Source: Bacteroidales bacterium
GTDB taxonomy: Bacteria > Bacteroidota > Bacteroidia > Bacteroidales > UBA7960
Length of the DNA: 47,648 nucleotides
NCBI GenBank assembly: GCA_003560165.1
Contig: PWJC01000069.1
Span: forward strand, 1 to 47,648
Direction of reading: 5' to 3'
Part shown: positions 1,016-25,405 of the stretch, in pieces
How positions within the stretch are numbered: position 1 is the stretch's first letter
How the letters are laid out: every line of letters starts with the position of its first letter
Program-made: the position numbers and the translations under genes
Notes under the pieces: model-generated
The model's database searches: none
Seen by the model: the letters and a program-made list of their open reading frames with translations, nothing else
What the model was told of the DNA's origin: nothing

Positions 1016-1747
1016 CTATCTGCTGCGATGTACCCGCGACATACCCGAAGTACTGACCCTGACGCCTGCCTGACCTGAAAGGTACAGGGTCGACATGCCC
1101 GACAGCCGGCCCTTTACCCCGTCGTGGGCCTTAAGCCTGGCCGATGAGGTTCCGCTGAGCCTGACCACAACATGTTCGCAGGCAAACTCTTCTCCTCCGA
1201 AATTGGACATTCCGCTGTTGGTCAGCAAAGCAGAGTGGGCATAACCACCGAAATGGACCTTCGATGTCCCCGAACTGATGACTTCCAGCTCAGACAGCCA
1301 GGCATCCACATAGACCCGGGCGATCCCGCTGGTGTTGACAAGCAGCTGTTGCTGATCCAGCGGGGTTTCCACATAAACTGAACTGGCCCCCGACGCCCTC
1401 ACCGAAGTCAGTTCCGGCATACTCACGTGCACATGGATTTTGGTGGCCGGGCTGAAATTAGTCCCGCCAATGGTTTCCAGCCGCAATGCATTGCCCGACA
1501 CACGGACATTCAGGTACTGATGAATGTTGTCGTCGGCAGTGACCTCCACATGCCAGTCTTCGCCGCTGCGGACAAATACCTGGAATATGCCCCCCGCCCG
1601 GATTGCGTCGAACCCATCAAGGTTATGGATCTCGCTGGTCACCTGCCCGCTACCCTTTATGGGGCGGACATTGTTCGTGTTCCCGGCAGTAAGGGTAAAA
1701 AAGGGGAACAAAAGAAAAACGCTCAGAATAATTTGTCTTGTTTTCAT
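1016..1747 (-). CDS. Secreted head-GIN domain (DUF2807) protein
   Basis: This 243-residue protein has a clear signal peptide (MKTRQIILSVFLLFPFFTLTAG). The mature part carries the DUF2807 'head GIN' fold found widely in Bacteroidota envelope proteins. It opens with GSGQVTSEIHNLDGFDAIRAGG and continues as repeating beta-helix-like strands rich in S/G/T, such as LTSVRASGASSVYV, LLVNTSGIARVYVDAW, LEVISSGTSKVHF and GRLSGMSTLYLSG. Length and start fit the family. The function of the family is unknown; some members are called putative adhesins, and I add nothing beyond that. The gene stands alone: the HAD gene upstream ends 416 bp away. A 46-bp element repeated elsewhere in the window lies about 60 bp before the start codon, in the same orientation as the gene. 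Confidence 0.85.
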   Translation of the reverse strand: MKTRQIILSVFLLFPFFTLTAGNTNNVRPIKGSGQVTSEIHNLDGFDAIRAGGIFQVFVRSGEDWHVEVTADDNIHQYLNVRVSGNALRLETIGGTNFSPATKIHVHVSMPELTSVRASGASSVYVETPLDQQQLLVNTSGIARVYVDAWLSELEVISSGTSKVHFGGYAHSALLTNSGMSNFGGEEFACEHVVVRLSGTSSARLKAHDGVKGRLSGMSTLYLSGQAGVRVSTSGMSRVHRSR

Positions 1748-1806
1748 TTGATTATCATTTTTTGTTTTGGTAAAGCAGGAAAGTCAAAAAGTCAAAAGGC
1801 CGAAAG

Positions 1807-1852
1807 GTCGTTTATCATCTGTCCGCAGGCAGTGCGTCTGTTAAAACCCAGG
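1807..1852 (-). repeat. 46-bp dispersed element, copy 1
   Basis: Read on the minus strand, this segment matches 4191-4236 on the plus strand at 40 of 46 positions without a gap. The shared core includes CGCACTGCCTGC and CAGATGATAAACGAC. Weaker similarity continues on both sides: TTTCG and GAC after the core, and an ACCTGTT-like stretch before it. Both copies lie upstream of a gene and point toward it. Neither copy has a sensible reading frame. Confidence 0.6.
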
Positions 1853-2086
1853 TAATCCCAAACAGGTATAAGCGTTTAATGGTTTAAATGTTTAACGTTC
1901 ATCTGTTTATAATTTGATGAATATGGCCAGATGGAGCTCGCCACGTCATAATCATTCGCCCGCAAACTATGCCACGACGTAAAACGGGCATTCATTTCAC
2001 ACAAGCATTATAACAGCACGTTGTATGCCACAGATTATTAACTTCTCATAATCAATACATAGCAAATCCGGACACCCAAACAGAAT

Positions 2087-2121
2087 GTTCCAAATCGTAC
2101 AGTATTTGTACGATTTGGAAC
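2087..2121. repeat. Perfect inverted repeat, 15-bp arms with 5-nt centre
   Basis: The left arm GTTCCAAATCGTACA (2087-2101) is the exact reverse complement of 2107-2121, separated by GTATT. It sits 42 bp beyond the stop codon of the minus-strand HAD gene, so as RNA it could form a 15-bp stem at the transcript end. No T-run follows on either strand, which argues against a classic intrinsic terminator. An operator for a dimeric regulator or a mobile-repeat remnant are alternatives. Confidence 0.6.
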
Positions 2122-2163
2122 AGGTGTCGTTGCGGGGCATCATTCCCCGATCTTTTTATACGG

Positions 2164-2868
2164 CTACATCTTGCTTGCCTTCCCTTGCCGCGAACAGGCA
2201 TGTTCGGATAGGAGGGGTTCGATCCACCCTGCAACATCCTTCAGCGAGCCAACCAGGGCTGAAGGCAAGCCCTCGAGCAAATGCAGGCTTTGGTGACCGT
2301 TGGCCACGATCAGGCAGTCGCATCCTATTTCATGGGACACCTCATGATCGTGGAGGGTATCGCCGATCAGCAATATTTCGCGGGGATCCAGGTTCAGATC
2401 GCTTAGCAGGGCTTTGCCCCTGTCCACCTTGCTGTTTGCGTAATGGTCGGTTAGTCCGGCCACTTTGCTGAAATAGTGCGCTATCCCCAGTTTTTTTATA
2501 CTATCTGCCAATTCCTGTTCGCGCGATGCCGACAGTATCGACTGACCGATCCCCAAACTGTGTATGCGGTCAAGAACAAATCCGGCATCTCCATGAAGAC
2601 TGAAACGGTATTTGTCCGAGGTAAACTCATGGATATATTCTGCTGCCAGTTGCTCGAAAGGCTCTCTTTCAAAATCGAAGCCCAGACGGGCATAATACGA
2701 TTTTACCGGAAAGGTAAAAATACGCCGGTAGGTTTCACGATCAAGCCTGGGCAAACCCCGCCTGCCAAGCAGAGTGTTCATGGCATCAATAACGATATCG
2801 ACATCGTCGAGCAAGGTGCCGTTCCAGTCCCAAATTATATGACAGTACCTGTTCACTGAACGCTTCAT
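2164..2868 (-). CDS. HAD-superfamily hydrolase (phosphoglycolate-phosphatase-like)
   Basis: This 234-residue cytoplasmic protein shows the four HAD motifs in order. Motif I is WDWNGTLLDD (nucleophile Asp14), motif II is LSAS, the motif III lysine is in the SKVDRGKAL region, and motif IV is LLIGDTLHDHE. The helical cap lies between motifs I and II, as in subfamily IA phosphatases such as Gph. The second motif-I aspartate, normally the general acid/base, is Asn16 here. The D-W-N-G-T form is known in a subset of HAD proteins, so this does not mean the gene is broken, but the substrate and even the type of chemistry are uncertain. The start shown puts motif I at the usual distance from the N-terminus. 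Confidence 0.85.
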   Translation of the reverse strand: MKRSVNRYCHIIWDWNGTLLDDVDIVIDAMNTLLGRRGLPRLDRETYRRIFTFPVKSYYARLGFDFEREPFEQLAAEYIHEFTSDKYRFSLHGDAGFVLDRIHSLGIGQSILSASREQELADSIKKLGIAHYFSKVAGLTDHYANSKVDRGKALLSDLNLDPREILLIGDTLHDHEVSHEIGCDCLIVANGHQSLHLLEGLPSALVGSLKDVAGWIEPLLSEHACSRQGKASKM

Positions 2869-2984
2869 CTTGATAGTGAGCTGCTCATCGGACAGCAGGT
2901 GACAGCCCCCGCCTTGCTGGCTGATCCCGAAGCATACTCCGTCATAACCCCACGGTATTCGGGCAATGCTGTTGTCATTACGGA

Positions 2985-4049
2985 TTATTCAGGACGCAAG
3001 GGGCTATAACTGATACCATCTGGCTCTCTTCCGGCATCAAAATGGCCAACAATGCGCATGCTTTCCAGATCGATGATGCTTACCGCATCCGACCGGGTAT
3101 TGGCCACATAGGCCCGGCTGTTATCGGGTACTACCAGGCCAATGGGGATTGAGGTGCCCTCAAACTCGGCAAAATACCGGGTTTCATCGGCGCCTTCGGG
3201 CACGGGAGGAGTCAGCCTGATGCTGGCGAGCTGTTTTCTGTCCCCGGTGTCGAACACGGCAATATCTCCCGAACGGGCATTGCTCACAAGAAAATAACGC
3301 CCGTCGGGGGTAAACTTTGCCCGGATGGGAAAGTCTTCGCAATCCAGGACGTCAAGTACTTCCAGGCTTTGTGTATCGATGATGGTGATCGTGTTGTCGG
3401 CCCTGTTGGTCACCCATACTTCATGGCCGTCCGGATGCACATCGATACCTTCTGCGCCCCGCCCGCTATAAACCTGGGCGATCAGATCACCGTTCTCCAG
3501 GTCAAACACCGTTACGTTCCCGGTTCGTATACTGGGGACAAAGGCCAGCCTGAAATCAGGTGTTGCCGCCACCATATGCGACACATCCTGCTCTGTATAA
3601 AAGGCATTCACCACTTCAAGGCGAGTTGCATCGACCACCAGAAGACTGCGGCTGCCCTCGGCCGTGACGAGTAATCTGTCGGTACCGGTAATCCATTGCA
3701 TTCCGTGCGGACGGGTATGTTCACCAAGATCAATGACCCCGATAAGACGGCCTTCAGGCACATCATATACCGAAAGGGTATTTCCGGCTTGCTCACGGTC
3801 GCCGTAATTGCTGACCACTGCAATGCGGCCGTTATCCGACACCTCCACTTCATGGGGCTCCCTGCCCGAGGGAAGGATCAGCATGACTTCACCGCTCTGC
3901 CGGTCGATAAAGTACACATCATCCCCGCTTTTGCTGGCAACGATCAGTGTTCCGGCGTTGTCCCCATAGCCGGAGGGTTGGTTGCTGCCGCATGAAAATG
4001 ACAACAGCAGGGCAGAAAAACTAACCAGAAATACAATCAATTTTTTCAT
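2985..4049 (-). CDS. YVTN/YncE-type beta-propeller lipoprotein
   Basis: This 354-residue protein begins with a lipoprotein signal (MKKLIVFLVSFSALLLSFSC, Cys20 lipidated, followed by GSNQ). The mature part is a chain of about seven propeller blades with the YVTN pattern, for example GTLIVASKSGDDVYFIDRQS, ADNTITIIDTQSLEVLDVL and RAYVANTRSDAVSIIDLES. Such propellers bind partners or metals, and no catalytic residue set can be assigned. The gene is followed after about 115 bp by the HAD gene on the same strand. Upstream it diverges from the acyl-CoA ligase across a 494-bp gap. The family and the envelope location are secure, but the role is unknown. Confidence 0.88.
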   Translation of the reverse strand: MKKLIVFLVSFSALLLSFSCGSNQPSGYGDNAGTLIVASKSGDDVYFIDRQSGEVMLILPSGREPHEVEVSDNGRIAVVSNYGDREQAGNTLSVYDVPEGRLIGVIDLGEHTRPHGMQWITGTDRLLVTAEGSRSLLVVDATRLEVVNAFYTEQDVSHMVAATPDFRLAFVPSIRTGNVTVFDLENGDLIAQVYSGRGAEGIDVHPDGHEVWVTNRADNTITIIDTQSLEVLDVLDCEDFPIRAKFTPDGRYFLVSNARSGDIAVFDTGDRKQLASIRLTPPVPEGADETRYFAEFEGTSIPIGLVVPDNSRAYVANTRSDAVSIIDLESMRIVGHFDAGREPDGISYSPLRPE

Positions 4050-4543
4050 AGGAACTTTTGCATTATGTTTGACATTTATTGAACTGCCATATAGGGAAGA
4101 CGATGGAACGAATGAACAAAAAAGTTGAAGAGTTGAAGTGTTTAAAGGTTGAATAATAAATACTTAAACTTTTAAACCTGTTAGGTGTTTCCCGGGTTTT
4201 AACTGTCGCACTGCCTGCAAGCAGATGATAAACGACATTTCGACATTTCAGACATTATGACCTGACAACCGTCCTCCTTCCCGAAAAAATTCGTTTCCAT
4301 TAATCCATTGGACGCAAAGGACAAAATAAAAATAGACTAAATTCCCGAAACCGCTGCCGAGAATGGATTTTTTTTAAGCTTCGTTCAGGCGGATGGCAGT
4401 GTACGCTGAACAACGCGATTAAATTTTTGGTTAAAATATTTGTATATTCGCAGCGCCAAAATTCCCAGCGCTGCACCAAACCAGGCCCATCGGGCCCGTC
4501 TTTGTGCTTTGGGCATAAAGAATTGTACGCATAATCAGGATCT
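4050..4543. other. 494-bp divergent gap holding dispersed repeat copy 2
   Basis: This gap lies between two divergent genes and must hold both promoters. It is AT-rich and includes simple sequence (about 4105-4185). Copy 2 of the 46-bp element is at 4191-4236. A possible sigma -7 box, TATATTCG (4443-4450), has TTG 13 nt upstream, shorter than usual, so I do not call it as a promoter. A minus-strand open frame of 89 codons (4300-4569) has no family features and overlaps the ligase start; I do not accept it as a gene. Confidence 0.45.
4191..4236 (+). repeat. 46-bp dispersed element, copy 2
   Basis: This plus-strand copy of the element at 1807-1852 has mismatches at only six positions: 3, 14, 16 and 29-31 of the alignment. 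It ends about 307 bp before the acyl-CoA ligase start and points toward it. It also lies 141 bp upstream of the divergent propeller gene, in the opposite orientation to that gene. Confidence 0.6.
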
Positions 4544-6487
4544 ATGCCATTACCAAAAAACGAACGCATTGCAGCCGATCATCTGGCCGGGCTGTACCGG
4601 AAGGCTGCCGAACGCTTCGAATCCCTGCCTGCCTTTGCCACCCGCGAAAAAGCCCTGGCGTGGAAACCGGTTTCGTTCCGCGAATTATACGAGCAAGGCC
4701 TTGATCTGGCCACCGGTCTGATCGATCTGGGAGTGGAGGCCAGGGAGCATGTGGGTTTGTTCAGCGATAACCGTTTCGAGTGGATGCTCACCGATTATGC
4801 CGTGCAGTTTTGCGGGGCAGTAGATGTTCCCCGGGGCAGGGACGTGTCTGACCCCGAACTGGAATACATCATTGAGCACGCCGGCATCAGGGTATGCTTT
4901 GTCGAAACCGAAGTGCTGCAAAACCGTTTGCTCCGCCTCAAAAACAGGCTGCCGGGCCTGAGCCGGATCATTGTCCTCGATCCGAAGGCCAGATTGAAAG
5001 AGGGCGCATCATCCCTGCAGGAGGTCATGGCTGACGGCGCACGGCTGCGCAAACAGGGCGACAAGCGGGTTTTTGACCGTATAGAGAGCATCCGGCCCGA
5101 CGACCTGTTTACCCTGATCTACACATCGGGTACCACGGGAAGGCCCAAGGGGGTCATGCTCACCCATGCCAATATGACCAGCCAGATCAGGAACCTGCCA
5201 GGGATACACAACCCCAACGACAGGATCCTTTCGGTTTTGCCCATCTGGCATGTGTTCGAAAGGGTTATCGAGATGTACACCATCAGTTTCGGGGGCTGCA
5301 CCTATTATTCGAACATTCTCACACTGGGAGAAGACATGAAAAATGTGGAACCCACCTTTATGGCATCGGCCCCGAGGCTCTGGCAGAAGATCCACGAAAA
5401 GATCATCCAGGGTGTGAAGGCATCCCATCCGGTCAGGCAGGTCCTGTTCCATATCGCCTACTTTTTGTCCCGGCAATACCGGGTTTCGGAATACTTCCTA
5501 ACCCGGAAACAATTGAAAATAAACAAAACACCCCGGTGGAAGCTGAGCCTGCTCTACCCCTTCCATTTGCTTCGCTGGCTCATTGTTTTGCCCTGGTACG
5601 GATTCTTCAATGCGGCCGTGCTGGAACGTATCCGACTGAGTGCCGGAGGTTCCCTGTCGGCAACCATTTCGGGTGGAGGCGCACTGCCCATTCACATCGA
5701 CCGGTTTTTTAACTATGTGGGGATCCCGGTGCTCGAGGGCTATGGACTCACGGAAACCTCACCGGTAATTTCGGTGCGTTCGAAAAGGAACCTGGTGGTG
5801 GGCACCGTCGGCCCCCCGCTGCCCGAAACCAGATTAAGGATAGTGGATGTCGAAACCGGGCAGACCTTGTTCCCCAACCGTGAGCTGGACCACCAAGGCA
5901 GGTCGTTGCGGGGAGAGATCCAGGTTCAGGGCCCCCAGGTTATGAAGGGGTATTACCGGGAAGACGAACTGACGTCCCTTGCCTTTGAGGACGGGTGGCT
6001 GCGTACAGGCGATCTCGGGATGGTCACCCACAATGATTGCCTGAAGATACTCGGACGCTCAAAGGCCACCATTGTTTTGTCGAGCGGAGAAAATGTGGAA
6101 CCCGAGCCCGTCGAAATGAGATTGCAGCAAAGCCAGTACATCGACCACTGCATGGTGGTGGGACAGGACCAGAAGTCATTGGGGGTTTTGATCGTGCCGG
6201 CGCTGGAAGCATTCAGGCAAAACGGCTCCCCAACGGCTACCCTGGCCGACCTGGCCCAAAACGACAAGGCCAGGGAGATCATCCGCCGCGAAATACGCAG
6301 TTTGATCTCCATATCCGGGGGTTTCAAAAAGTATGAACTCATCAGGGATTTCCGCCTGCTCGGCCGCAGCTTCAGGGTGGGCCACGAACTAACCAATCTG
6401 TTCAAGATCAAACGCCATGTGGTAAACCGGGAGTTCGAGGGCGACATTCAGCATTTGTTTAAAAACCAAAGCAAAAAAAGCCGTTAA
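4544..6487 (+). CDS. Long-chain acyl-CoA ligase (AMP-forming)
   Basis: This 647-residue member of the ANL (AMP-binding) family activates a carboxylic acid to acyl-AMP and then acyl-CoA. Visible motifs are the phosphate loop YTSGTTGRPKG (193-203), GYGLTETSP (399-407), and LRTGDLG (486-492), whose Asp490 binds the ribose. The late lysine motif is unusual: the family's GGFK pattern appears near the C-terminus as SGGFKKYEL. The inserted basic segment around 300-370, with a partly membrane-associating look, is typical of long-chain fatty-acid ligases of the FAA1/FadD15 type. The stop codon is 4 bp before the next start, so it is almost surely co-transcribed with the BASS permease. That suggests the ligase traps whatever the permease brings in. 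The exact acyl substrate is not visible. Confidence 0.9.
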   Translation: MPLPKNERIAADHLAGLYRKAAERFESLPAFATREKALAWKPVSFRELYEQGLDLATGLIDLGVEAREHVGLFSDNRFEWMLTDYAVQFCGAVDVPRGRDVSDPELEYIIEHAGIRVCFVETEVLQNRLLRLKNRLPGLSRIIVLDPKARLKEGASSLQEVMADGARLRKQGDKRVFDRIESIRPDDLFTLIYTSGTTGRPKGVMLTHANMTSQIRNLPGIHNPNDRILSVLPIWHVFERVIEMYTISFGGCTYYSNILTLGEDMKNVEPTFMASAPRLWQKIHEKIIQGVKASHPVRQVLFHIAYFLSRQYRVSEYFLTRKQLKINKTPRWKLSLLYPFHLLRWLIVLPWYGFFNAAVLERIRLSAGGSLSATISGGGALPIHIDRFFNYVGIPVLEGYGLTETSPVISVRSKRNLVVGTVGPPLPETRLRIVDVETGQTLFPNRELDHQGRSLRGEIQVQGPQVMKGYYREDELTSLAFEDGWLRTGDLGMVTHNDCLKILGRSKATIVLSSGENVEPEPVEMRLQQSQYIDHCMVVGQDQKSLGVLIVPALEAFRQNGSPTATLADLAQNDKAREIIRREIRSLISISGGFKKYELIRDFRLLGRSFRVGHELTNLFKIKRHVVNREFEGDIQHLFKNQSKKSR

Positions 6488-23500: not shown

Positions 23501-23698
23501 CTTCCGTCAAGCATGGTGAACAGGATCAATGCAAGAGCCTGGCGGATCTACGTATCTGCAGAAAACCTTATTACCCTCACCAGGTATACAGGGGCCGATC
23601 CGGAGATCGGAGCCCTCAGTTCATTCGACATTGGCATTGACAGGGGTATTTATCCGCAGGCAAGGACGTTCCGCCTGGGTACCAGCTTGTCATTCTAG
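20600..23698 (+). CDS. SusC/RagA-family TonB-dependent outer membrane transporter
   Basis: This 1032-residue protein imports oligosaccharides through the outer membrane with energy from TonB. It has a signal peptide ending LYAQ and a carboxypeptidase-D-like domain (about 25-105, LQGLVTDRTTGESLPGATIQI). The SusC-type motif FVVVGYGTQQKK is followed by the plug domain (about 115-235, PTVRIRGAGTTGNAEPLYVVDG). The rest is a 22-strand barrel ending in aromatic Phe (LGTSLSF), the signal for outer membrane assembly. The length is normal. Its partner SusD follows after 150 bp. The GH16, PKD and GH149 neighbours indicate beta-1,3-glucan fragments as cargo. Confidence 0.95.
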   Translation: MKSILFSLILLISVIFQAGTLYAQTLQGLVTDRTTGESLPGATIQIIGTTRGTVTGIEGDYQLSLDAGTHVLSVSYVGYIPQEIEISIEPDETLVRNIQLQPDITTFEEFVVVGYGTQQKKVVTGAISSIDADEITATPVLRVEQAMQGRAAGVQVTNLSGQPGEAPTVRIRGAGTTGNAEPLYVVDGMVVSGIDFLNPGDIESIDVLKDAASAAIYGARAANGVVLITTRSGVEGDLSLNYSFYQGIQNVARFVDVLNSEQYMMMMNEGARNAGRTEPFDLNEIPRHNTNWQQELFERNAPIANHELSVSGGTENSTYSSSLSYFTQQGIIGGDRSQFDRITARLNTRHQVNDFIRFGNNLAYSHIISRGIASNASFNAAYSSALNIDPLTPVFQQNEDILSQPPYSNQPVVTSRDGRVYGISQNVGAEIVNPLALLEIQTGETRVDKIVGNVFGEVEPLTDLTFRTTLGIDLGYVLNDAHQPLFYLNGAQLNTEKTTVQKNIDRYYTWQFENTLAYSRQVDDHSFSALVGTTANKSNFENLFGFNADVDVSNPNHVYLNMATDTVWQAFGGASHSALLSLFGRITYDYQARYAFNATVRRDGSSKFGPNDRFGTFPSVGVTWMISEEDFFPSLGAMEVIKLRASWGVNGNQEIGNYQFVSTIDRSRGYIFGGGRAFGASPSFIANRDIRWEESEQIDVAIDFGAYNNRLTGTVDYYIKTTRGLLEVIPIPGHVGNDPPVANVGSVENRGVEMSLNWRNYQEDLRYSLGINAAYNRNRMTKIGNAEGVLPGANWAVAGMVTRTELGLPIAYFYGYVTDGIFQNWDEVNSHINRSGQRLQPNARPGDVRFVDVNGDGVINPDDRTMIGNPTPDWTFGMNGNFEYKQFDLGFLIIGTYGNDVFNGIRRRDLNSTNLSTDMLSRWTGEGTSNTLPRFTFSDINRNNRISDLYIEDASFVRLKNIQIGYVLPSSMVNRINARAWRIYVSAENLITLTRYTGADPEIGALSSFDIGIDRGIYPQARTFRLGTSLSF

Positions 23699-23718
23699 TA
23701 ATCACAAGGAACGAAGAA

Positions 23719-23807
23719 ACGAATGAACAACAGAACGAATGAACGACAGAACGAATTTTTTTTTACTTTCTACCTTTTACCTTCTGTCTTCCGTTTTCTG
23801 TCTTCCG
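23719..23807 (+). repeat. Purine and pyrimidine repeats between susC and susD
   Basis: A 16-bp unit ACGAATGAACRACAGA occurs twice (23719-23734 and 23735-23750), followed by a third start, ACGAAT. A run of nine T (23756-23764) comes next, then TTCTGTCTTCCG twice (23782-23793 and 23796-23807). GACAGAA in the purine part can pair with TTCTGTC in the pyrimidine part, so a stem around the T-run is possible. This is unusual content for a susC-susD gap. Confidence 0.5.
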
Positions 23808-23848
23808 TCATCGACATTTCACATACTGAAATATAAAAACCCAACCAG

Positions 23849-25405
23849 ATGAACCATAGATTAATCAAATCACTGCAGGTTTTTCTCATCGCCATTTTTT
23901 TGTTCGGATGCAGCGATGATTTTCTTGACCTGAACCCCCTCGACCAGGTGGTAAGCACAAACTTTTACCAAACCGAAGAAGACGCCTTTCAGGCTCTGGT
24001 GGCTGTGTATGATGTGCTCACCTATCAGTCGACTCCGGGTGTCAGCTGGGCTCCCTTTCTGACTGTGGCCGATGTGCTTTCGGACGATGTCTTTGGCGGG
24101 GGGTCGGATGCCAACGACGGACGGGATTTCAATCAGTTGAACGACCACGACATCCCCGCAGCCAACCCGATTGTTCATGCCACCTGGATCAAGAACTATA
24201 TTGGCATTTACCGGTCAAACCTGTATCTCGAAATGATAGACGGCATCGATGCGGCAGAAAGTTTCAAACAAAGGACCAGTGCGGAGGTGAAATTCATGCG
24301 GGCTTATTTTTACTTCGAGCAAGTCCGATTCTTCGAAAACATTCCGCTGCTGACACGAACCTTGTCGGGGCCATCCGAATACAGCCAGGAGCAAAACACC
24401 CCCAAAGAGGTGTACGATCAGATTGCCCTCGACCTTGTGGAAGCCATTGCCGGCCTTCCCGAATCGGTAACTGCAGCAGAGACCGGAAGGATCACCAAAT
24501 GGGCGGCTCAGGCTTTGCTGGCCAGGATTTACCTGTTCTATAACGGGGTTTACGGAGCCGAACTGATGGCAGGCGACACCACTGTCGACCGGGCTTATGT
24601 GCTCGCACAACTGGAAGACCTGATCGCCAACAGCGGGCATGATCTTTTTCCTGATTATTCGCTCAACTTCAAACTTGCCGGCGAATTTGGGATAGAATCG
24701 GTTTTTGAGATCGCTCACGGCGACACCCCGACCTGGTGGGATTGGGGTTATCCGCGGGGAGGTGCCGGCAATCTGGCTGCCCAGATGCAGGGACCAAGGG
24801 TAACCGGATCAAACAAATGGAACAGGGGATGGAGTTTTGGCACGGTAAGCCACAAGCTGGCAGCGTTCATGGCAGATGACCCCCGCTTCAATTACACCAT
24901 TCTTACCGAGCAGGAACTGGACGGAAATCTTACCAAAGGATACCAACATACCGGATACTTTTCCAAAAAATACAGTTCGGATGCAGAGCACTGGGGGTCT
25001 GCCGGACAGTTTGAACTAAACAGGACCGTCAACTTCCGGGTAATTCGCTTCTCTGATGTGCTTTTGATGGCCGCAGAACTTGGGAGTCCGAATGCCCAGT
25101 CCTACCTCGACAGGGTAAGAGCCAGGGTCGGACTGGATCCCGTACCGGCCAGCCTGGAAAATATTTTCAGGGAAAGGCGGCTGGAACTCTCGCTCGAAGG
25201 CATCCGTTATTTTGACCTTATACGTCGCGGAATGGATGTTGCCAATCAGGAATTAACCCACTCCGGCATCAGGGGCCCCAGATACGAGGGAGACCAACAA
25301 ATATTCGATGTAAGGTTCAACACGGCAACCCGGGGTTTTTTGCCCATTCCGCTGACGGAAATAGACCTTTCTGCCGGTGTGTTTCAACAAAACAGCGGAT
25401 ACTGA
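23849..25405 (+). CDS. SusD/RagB-family surface glycan-binding lipoprotein
   Basis: This 518-residue lipoprotein is the lid of the SusCD importer. The signal ends in FLFGC (Cys21), followed by SDDFLDLNPLDQ, the common SusD start and a surface-export signal. The helical TPR-like core is seen as EVKFMRAYFYFEQVRFFENIPLL, KWAAQALLARIYLFYNG and FRERRLELSLEGIRYFDLIRRG. The last of these is the usual C-terminal SusD motif, before FLPIPLTEIDLS. It follows SusC and precedes the MFS permease. Substrate specificity is inferred from the locus rather than from this protein. Confidence 0.94.
   Translation: MNHRLIKSLQVFLIAIFLFGCSDDFLDLNPLDQVVSTNFYQTEEDAFQALVAVYDVLTYQSTPGVSWAPFLTVADVLSDDVFGGGSDANDGRDFNQLNDHDIPAANPIVHATWIKNYIGIYRSNLYLEMIDGIDAAESFKQRTSAEVKFMRAYFYFEQVRFFENIPLLTRTLSGPSEYSQEQNTPKEVYDQIALDLVEAIAGLPESVTAAETGRITKWAAQALLARIYLFYNGVYGAELMAGDTTVDRAYVLAQLEDLIANSGHDLFPDYSLNFKLAGEFGIESVFEIAHGDTPTWWDWGYPRGGAGNLAAQMQGPRVTGSNKWNRGWSFGTVSHKLAAFMADDPRFNYTILTEQELDGNLTKGYQHTGYFSKKYSSDAEHWGSAGQFELNRTVNFRVIRFSDVLLMAAELGSPNAQSYLDRVRARVGLDPVPASLENIFRERRLELSLEGIRYFDLIRRGMDVANQELTHSGIRGPRYEGDQQIFDVRFNTATRGFLPIPLTEIDLSAGVFQQNSGY

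Follow-up and report, generated by a model that had tools for sequence, protein, structure and literature searches.

A short dispersed repeat with internal tandem arrays, mostly facing gene starts, in the genome of a Bacteroidales bacterium

Two similar 46-bp stretches lying in front of unrelated genes in one contig of a Bacteroidales bacterium raise the question of whether they are members of a dispersed small repeat family, leader elements acting in RNA or sites for a shared regulator, the three possibilities offered by a sequence-only reading of the 47,648 nucleotides analyzed here (the window). The pair itself held up, as positions 1807-1852 (minus strand) and 4191-4236 (plus strand) aligned gap-free with 40 of their 46 positions identical, and the similarity said to reach past them extended to 92 nt at 79% identity (1795-1886 vs. 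4157-4248). Scanning the window for other sites within 20 mismatches of either 46-mer gave none beyond the pair. The two had been judged too similar for chance, and when copy 2 was used as a query genome-wide it retrieved copy 1 with E = 5.1e-17; chance is therefore excluded. Their non-coding status agreed with our gene calls, which here and below were made by a purpose-written script and not by a standard gene finder, and we found nothing to support as a gene the mechanical open reading frame at 1427-1855 (plus strand) that overlaps copy 1. Both copies were flanked on each side by short octamer arrays. The features of the window that bear on the question are listed below; copies 1 and 2 were both among the 38 rows used to build the two profiles whose scores are given.

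1016 to 1747, minus strand: head-GIN (DUF2807) gene downstream of copy 1 (PF10988, E 6.2e-32), starting 45 nt from the core
1780 to 1797, minus strand: octamer array at the tail of copy 1 (period 8 by tandem repeats finder; plus-strand unit AAAGTCAA)
1793 to 1883, minus strand: core of copy 1, holding 1807-1852 (nhmmer 79.4 bits, E 3.5e-23; profile R1 76.1 bits)
1874 to 1895, minus strand: octamer array at the head of copy 1 (period 8 by tandem repeats finder; plus-strand unit GTTTAAAG)
1897 to 1910, minus strand: ATAAACAGATGAAC, abutting the head of copy 1 on its upstream side (sequence and position)
4123 to 4153, plus strand: octamer array at the head of copy 2 (period 8 by tandem repeats finder; unit AGTTGAAG)
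4163 to 4250, plus strand: core of copy 2, holding 4191-4236 (nhmmer 87.7 bits; profile R1 90 bits)
4233 to 4256, plus strand: octamer array at the tail of copy 2 (period 8 by tandem repeats finder; unit CGACATTT)
4419 to 4450, plus strand: promoter-like block in front of the ligase gene, beyond copy 2, with TATATTCG at 4443-4450 (alignment A2)
4544 to 6487, plus strand: AMP-binding gene of the acyl-CoA ligase type that follows copy 2 (PF00501, E 2.9e-77), its start 293 nt from the core
23699 to 23848, plus strand: array site lacking a core, before a SusD-like gene (tandem repeats and sequence)

A perfect inverted repeat with 14-nt arms (GTTCCAAATCGTAC) and a 7-nt spacer was also present at 2087-2121, between the end of a HAD gene and copy 1.

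Searching the rest of the genome, a 2.71-Mb bin (184 contigs, 95% complete), supported the first of the three possibilities. Profile R1, a sequence-only profile built from 38 copies, gave at least 71 matches at E ≤ 0.01, these 38 included (150 of 1539 candidates scored), and BLAST with copy 2 gave at least 54 (40 of 95 candidates scored). Many similar copies thus occupied unrelated intergenic sites of one genome, as is expected of a dispersed intergenic family. We put their number at about 60-70, between genes, and the counts of genomic context given below rest on 67 of them, with C37:9640, C42, C156 and C27 of the 71 left out; copies at contig ends may have been counted twice, as in each of two pairs the members had a 60-mer in common. 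Of the 67, 42 lay no more than 400 bp from a contig end, and in 36 of these the array side pointed outward; the repeat probably accounts in part for the splitting of the genome into 184 contigs. A second dispersed repeat, around AATCAAGGCCGGTT and AGTAAGCAGGCC, stood beside several copies, often near contig ends (L102, L117, L118, L121, L123 and L141, on contigs C82, C122, C172, C45, C178 and C56).

Outside this genome the family was not recovered. R1 had no match in 20 other genomes of the genus (up to 150 candidates scored per genome), and among 393 genomes of the order (up to 10 candidates per genome) it matched only its own genome and, at 21.7 bits, one locus in G304, which we took as a chance match because 170 inspected bases there held neither arrays nor core. 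An exact core pattern of 23 letters had no match in a wider contig collection, in which records near the genome itself were possibly not included, and no viral contig matched the exact core patterns of this family or of the G005 family described below. The sequence-only reading had named a lack of further copies and of conservation in relatives as what would speak against it; further copies proved abundant, but the core was absent from all 20 congeners. We conclude that the two stretches are almost certainly the middle parts of members of a short, non-coding, species-limited dispersed repeat family. The six closest named relatives of the ligase protein (78-80% identity) came from Bacteroidales bins, isolates named CSSed... 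or T3Sed..., names that presumably stand for soda-lake sediment.

Read toward the downstream gene, a copy consists of heptamers, octamers, a core of about 90 bp and octamers of the CGACATTT type, followed by the gene's leader and ATG. The 5′ arrays comprise the heptamers AGAAGAC and AGGTAGT, then the octamers GAACGATG and GTTGAAGA, and then TTAAACTT, a recurring order that was read from part of the copies, with the arrays present varying by copy (in C127 and C45:10755, a AACAGCCA-type array took the place of TTAAACTT). When 38 copies were aligned, several core blocks were near-invariant, and alternative 3′ halves of the core occurred, a pattern that suggests mosaic copying. Array lengths and outer ends differed between copies, and the arrays blur the ends of the element; on contig C96, two cores stood in tandem, the tail octamers of the first grading into the head octamers of the second. 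Several copies had arrays starting right at the upstream stop codon, and in others a stretch that looked terminator-like by eye intervened. Arrays also occurred without a core, as at the site listed above, which spans from a stop TAG (23696-23698) to the ATG at 23849 of the SusD-like gene (PF14322, E 3.3e-26) and contains octamers of the GAACGAAT type, heptamers of the TTCTGTC type and a single CGACATTT; the gene preceding it had no Pfam match in the 565 residues scanned. Exact arrays of period 7 and period 8 reached 27.7 and 57.8 per 100 kb, respectively, in 60 loci of this genome that had been selected for holding the repeat; the corresponding values were 3.8 and 1.4 for 40 loci from relatives, and 3.5 and 0.3 for another 40 that are more distant. 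The octamer count in this genome was 656 with overlaps counted, and a reversed-pattern control gave 8 in G003 and 209 in this genome, the latter because an array in its A-only form is almost unchanged by reversal.

The copies were polar with respect to genes. None of the 67 overlapped a gene by more than 40 nt, and once those without the relevant neighbor had been omitted from the respective counts (6 without a downstream and 36 without an upstream neighbor), 50 of 61 faced a gene start and 11 a gene stop (P = 2.3e-7 for at least 50 under random strand), with a median of 46 nt from core to start. When only copies lying over 300 bp away from each contig end were counted, 21 of 25 were start-facing and 4 were not, and between co-directional genes 16 ran along the direction of the genes and 3 opposed it. 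Each copy of the window pair had been said to point toward the next gene start. This was borne out for copy 1, with the DUF2807 start 45 nt past its core, but only loosely for copy 2, from which the ligase start is 293 nt away with a promoter-like block conserved in five orthologues in between. These orthologues (L160, L161, L162, L164 and L165) share TTAAAT...GTATATTTG, which aligns with window positions 4419-4450, and R1 gave no match in 39 loci from the closest relatives of the ligase, a set that contains these five (L164 being represented by 144 upstream bases only). Because this block lies downstream of copy 2, the ligase transcript probably does not include copy 2, unless there is a further promoter.

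We scanned ten proteins against Pfam, eight of them downstream neighbors and two others flanking the window copies (a HAD hydrolase and a beta-propeller). The eight neighbors were a DUF2807 protein, an AMP-binding protein, a glutamine amidotransferase, TldD/PmbA, tyrosyl-tRNA synthetase (TyrS), peptidyl-tRNA hydrolase, a fumarase-type lyase and ribosomal protein L13. No shared function was visible among the Pfam-scanned proteins and the beginnings of the remaining neighbors. From its context, we take the amidotransferase to be HisH and the preceding gene, in which an aminotransferase domain is followed by one of imidazoleglycerol-phosphate dehydratase, to be HisB. The hisB-hisH gap measured about 261 nt here vs. 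11-24 nt by eye in 5 of 13 relatives (G002, G004, G010, G011 and G015), and was longer in the other 8.

The repeat was absent from the orthologous gaps of relatives that we compared, and octamer runs were present at some of them: of the three loci examined, hisH and tyrS were preceded by such runs in G005 and G006, and pth, whose upstream gene matches ribosomal L25, was so in G005 (the G006 pth locus was incomplete and left out). Counted with overlaps, CGACATTTCGACATTT occurred 80 times in G005, 21 in G010, 9 in G006, 8 in the genome studied here and once each in G018 and G020, and in none of 15 others. A different octamer array, GATTCAAC, was seen just before tyrS in G007 (L267), as if octamers were particular to each species.

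The congener G005 proved to carry a parallel family, in which the same octamers are embedded in another conserved sequence. Its array places numbered 56 by hand count, of which 43 were read; 3 had no called downstream neighbor, and the other 40 all faced a gene start (the neighbor genes L392 and L407 each being counted for two arrays). The distance from array to start was exactly 80 nt in 12 of the 40 and 78-81 nt in 17. Conservation stood at 90-95% of rows through ATGAA, dropped to 70% at the next base and then to 26-47%. ATGAA was also found directly before the 5′ module in 9 of the 16 copies having that module, of which 3 follow another repeat copy and 2 resemble one duplicated locus, so that about five cases are independent. 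The 5′ module itself contains a 6-bp stem, CCGGGC/GCCCGG (loci L370, L375, L384, L389 and L400); the stem reads CCGAGC/GCTCGG in L370 and L400, with both sides changed, and other copies break one to three pairs.

Taken as a whole, our preferred explanation, to which we give a probability of roughly 0.6, is that of a non-coding, species-limited dispersed repeat that spread from its arrays and carries no shared regulatory signal. Spread would proceed by copying, recombination or template switching starting in the octamer arrays, and octamer runs already present before genes would seed insertion and set its direction. The octamer runs at orthologous loci and the tandem pair on C96 hint at such array-seeded spread, a step that we put forward tentatively and at somewhat short of even odds; the search for an enzyme, which covered the Y1 family, and the copies themselves revealed no enzyme and no insertion intermediate. 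Within operons such as hisB-hisH, the repeat would be transcribed along with the genes as a spacer that is not translated, and any effects on expression would be by-products, not a common signal. Against this explanation of an unselected repeat, the polarity and the 46-nt median could reflect selection for a leader function, and three of six stretches folded better than shuffles.

A different account of the polarity supposes start-codon-anchored modular elements in this genus, which would copy themselves to a place immediately before or at a start codon, oriented along transcription, and supply a new leader, the octamer being shared between species and the core replaced. The case for such start-directed insertion comes from the relic-like ATGAA starts before the G005 5′ modules together with ATAAACAGATGAAC beside copy 1. 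An ATGAA in that position resembles a start left behind by insertion, and copy 1 may be arranged likewise, its upstream ATAAACAGATGAAC reading as a leftover gene start. All these relic-like starts are no more than suggestive, since ATAAACACATGAA is similar to the leader that such genes usually have. We regard this account as doubtful. If insertion were truly directed to gene starts, leaders would be rewritten genome-wide in one direction, and the orthologous gaps of close species would let the steps of insertion be ordered. Even if the repeat were neutral filler, matching upstream sequences in such genomes need not imply co-regulation.

The same polarity could instead mark a leader element under selection, with the repeat setting translation or mRNA stability from 5′ untranslated regions by means of its arrays and hairpins. 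The 50 of 61 start-facing copies with their median of 46 nt argue for this, as do the G005 arrays (40 of 40 start-facing, 12 at exactly 80 nt, conservation through ATGAA), and folding was good in half of the cases: for six stretches compared with shuffles, z was -3.1, +0.9, -2.8, +0.4, -1.1 and -3.3, three of the six being better. The RNA leader suggested by the sequence-only reading gained no support from Rfam or from covariation. With Rfam 15 at gathering thresholds, there were no matches in the whole window, and we set aside a described RNA family. RNAalifold returned one five-pair stem with no compensatory change. Two named hairpins had standard pairs in 77.8% of cells vs. 25-56% in slid controls, but their covariation score of 0.064 was matched by 75 of 500 shuffles and their 6 doubly changed cells by 47 of 500, and a covarying structure found no support, as covariation did not exceed shuffles. 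Stem 1 says little on this point because it is nearly invariant, and since several core blocks are near-invariant among the 38 copies, missing covariation is weak evidence. The core hairpin was broken in many copies, and a hairpin of head octamers with the following array, suspected by eye, gave mixed folding. Also weighing against a selected leader are the 11 of 61 stop-facing copies, the position of copy 2 upstream of a conserved promoter-like block, the lack of a visible common function among neighbors and the absence of the core from 20 congeners. We consider selection for a leader unlikely, and the repeat is probably not a dedicated regulatory leader.

A promoter borne by the core likewise found no support. 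TTTG-N17-22-TANNTTTG is the Bacteroidetes-type promoter motif; in the 43 of 50 start-facing copies that lie within 120 nt, it occurred in 1 segment vs. a shuffle mean of 0.3 and maximum of 3, and TANNTTTG alone occurred in 1 of 43 vs. 4.2.

How the repeat moves bears on its relation to known elements. REP elements are short dispersed intergenic repeats with hairpin potential and a REP-associated tyrosine transposase. The present repeat is likewise short, dispersed and intergenic with hairpin potential, but its core hairpin is often broken and the 95% complete bin had no match to the Y1 transposase (PF01797) in a search that was positive in 5 of 14 control genomes, and we rejected a Y1-mobilised REP on the latter ground. 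A MITE mobilised by a transposase encoded elsewhere, its arrays internal or acquired, would account for copies that are dispersed and absent from the compared gaps of relatives. It also has a precedent in the Bacteroidales, BrickBuilt of Porphyromonas gingivalis, which is described as an intergenic MITE of leader, internal tandem repeat and tail, with the keyword "species-specific repeat"; one strain has 19 copies, the repeat unit is a single one of 23 nt, the ends are small inverted repeats, and segments showed promoter activity in E. coli (PMC4596501). The host order, the intergenic location and the layout of leader, internal tandem repeat and tail are matched here. In contrast to BrickBuilt, the present family numbers about 60-70 copies, combines several units of 7 and 8 nt whose order recurs, lacks a strong inverted repeat within its core and is polar toward starts, the last being unexpected for a plain MITE. 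The best ungapped inverted match between halves of the core consensus scored 8, which is not strong and concerns the core only, the outer ends of full copies being variable arrays. With array lengths and outer ends variable and Y1 transposase not matched, we think a MITE quite improbable. A common DNA site through which one regulator would control a regulon, the last of the three original suggestions, has in its favor conserved blocks upstream of many genes, but a conserved stretch of about 90 bp plus arrays, neighbors without visible common function and a core confined to one species leave it very improbable.

Besides BrickBuilt, the closest known kind is that of the TAACTGA heptamers of Beggiatoaceae, Cyanobacteria and some Bacteroidetes, short direct repeats many of which lie just upstream of start codons in the forward direction, with mixed heptamer assemblages in some Bacteroidetes and contigs that break in the repeats (PMC4679880). 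The octamer tails here and in G005 likewise form short-unit direct repeats before starts, as in the TAACTGA/STRR type, with units that differ from TAACTGA; the TAACTGA type described there is a single heptamer without a conserved core, whereas here several octamers and heptamers surround one. A survey of prokaryote satellites reports that some abundant bacterial families derive from heptamers (PMC6749651). The present family differs from the known kinds in unit length, core and polarity. Open-licence PubMed Central, searched mostly through titles and abstract openings, yielded no account of a Bacteroidales repeat that joins octamers to a core and faces gene starts, which is weak evidence. The repeat is a short dispersed repeat with internal tandem arrays, of an ordinary kind, whose layout and orientation are unusual. 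Upstream of copy 1, a block at 1897-1965 (minus strand) with GGCGAGCTCCATCTGGCC and ATAAACAGATGAAC recurs once in G005 (L370, 775-789) and is perhaps an older leader element.
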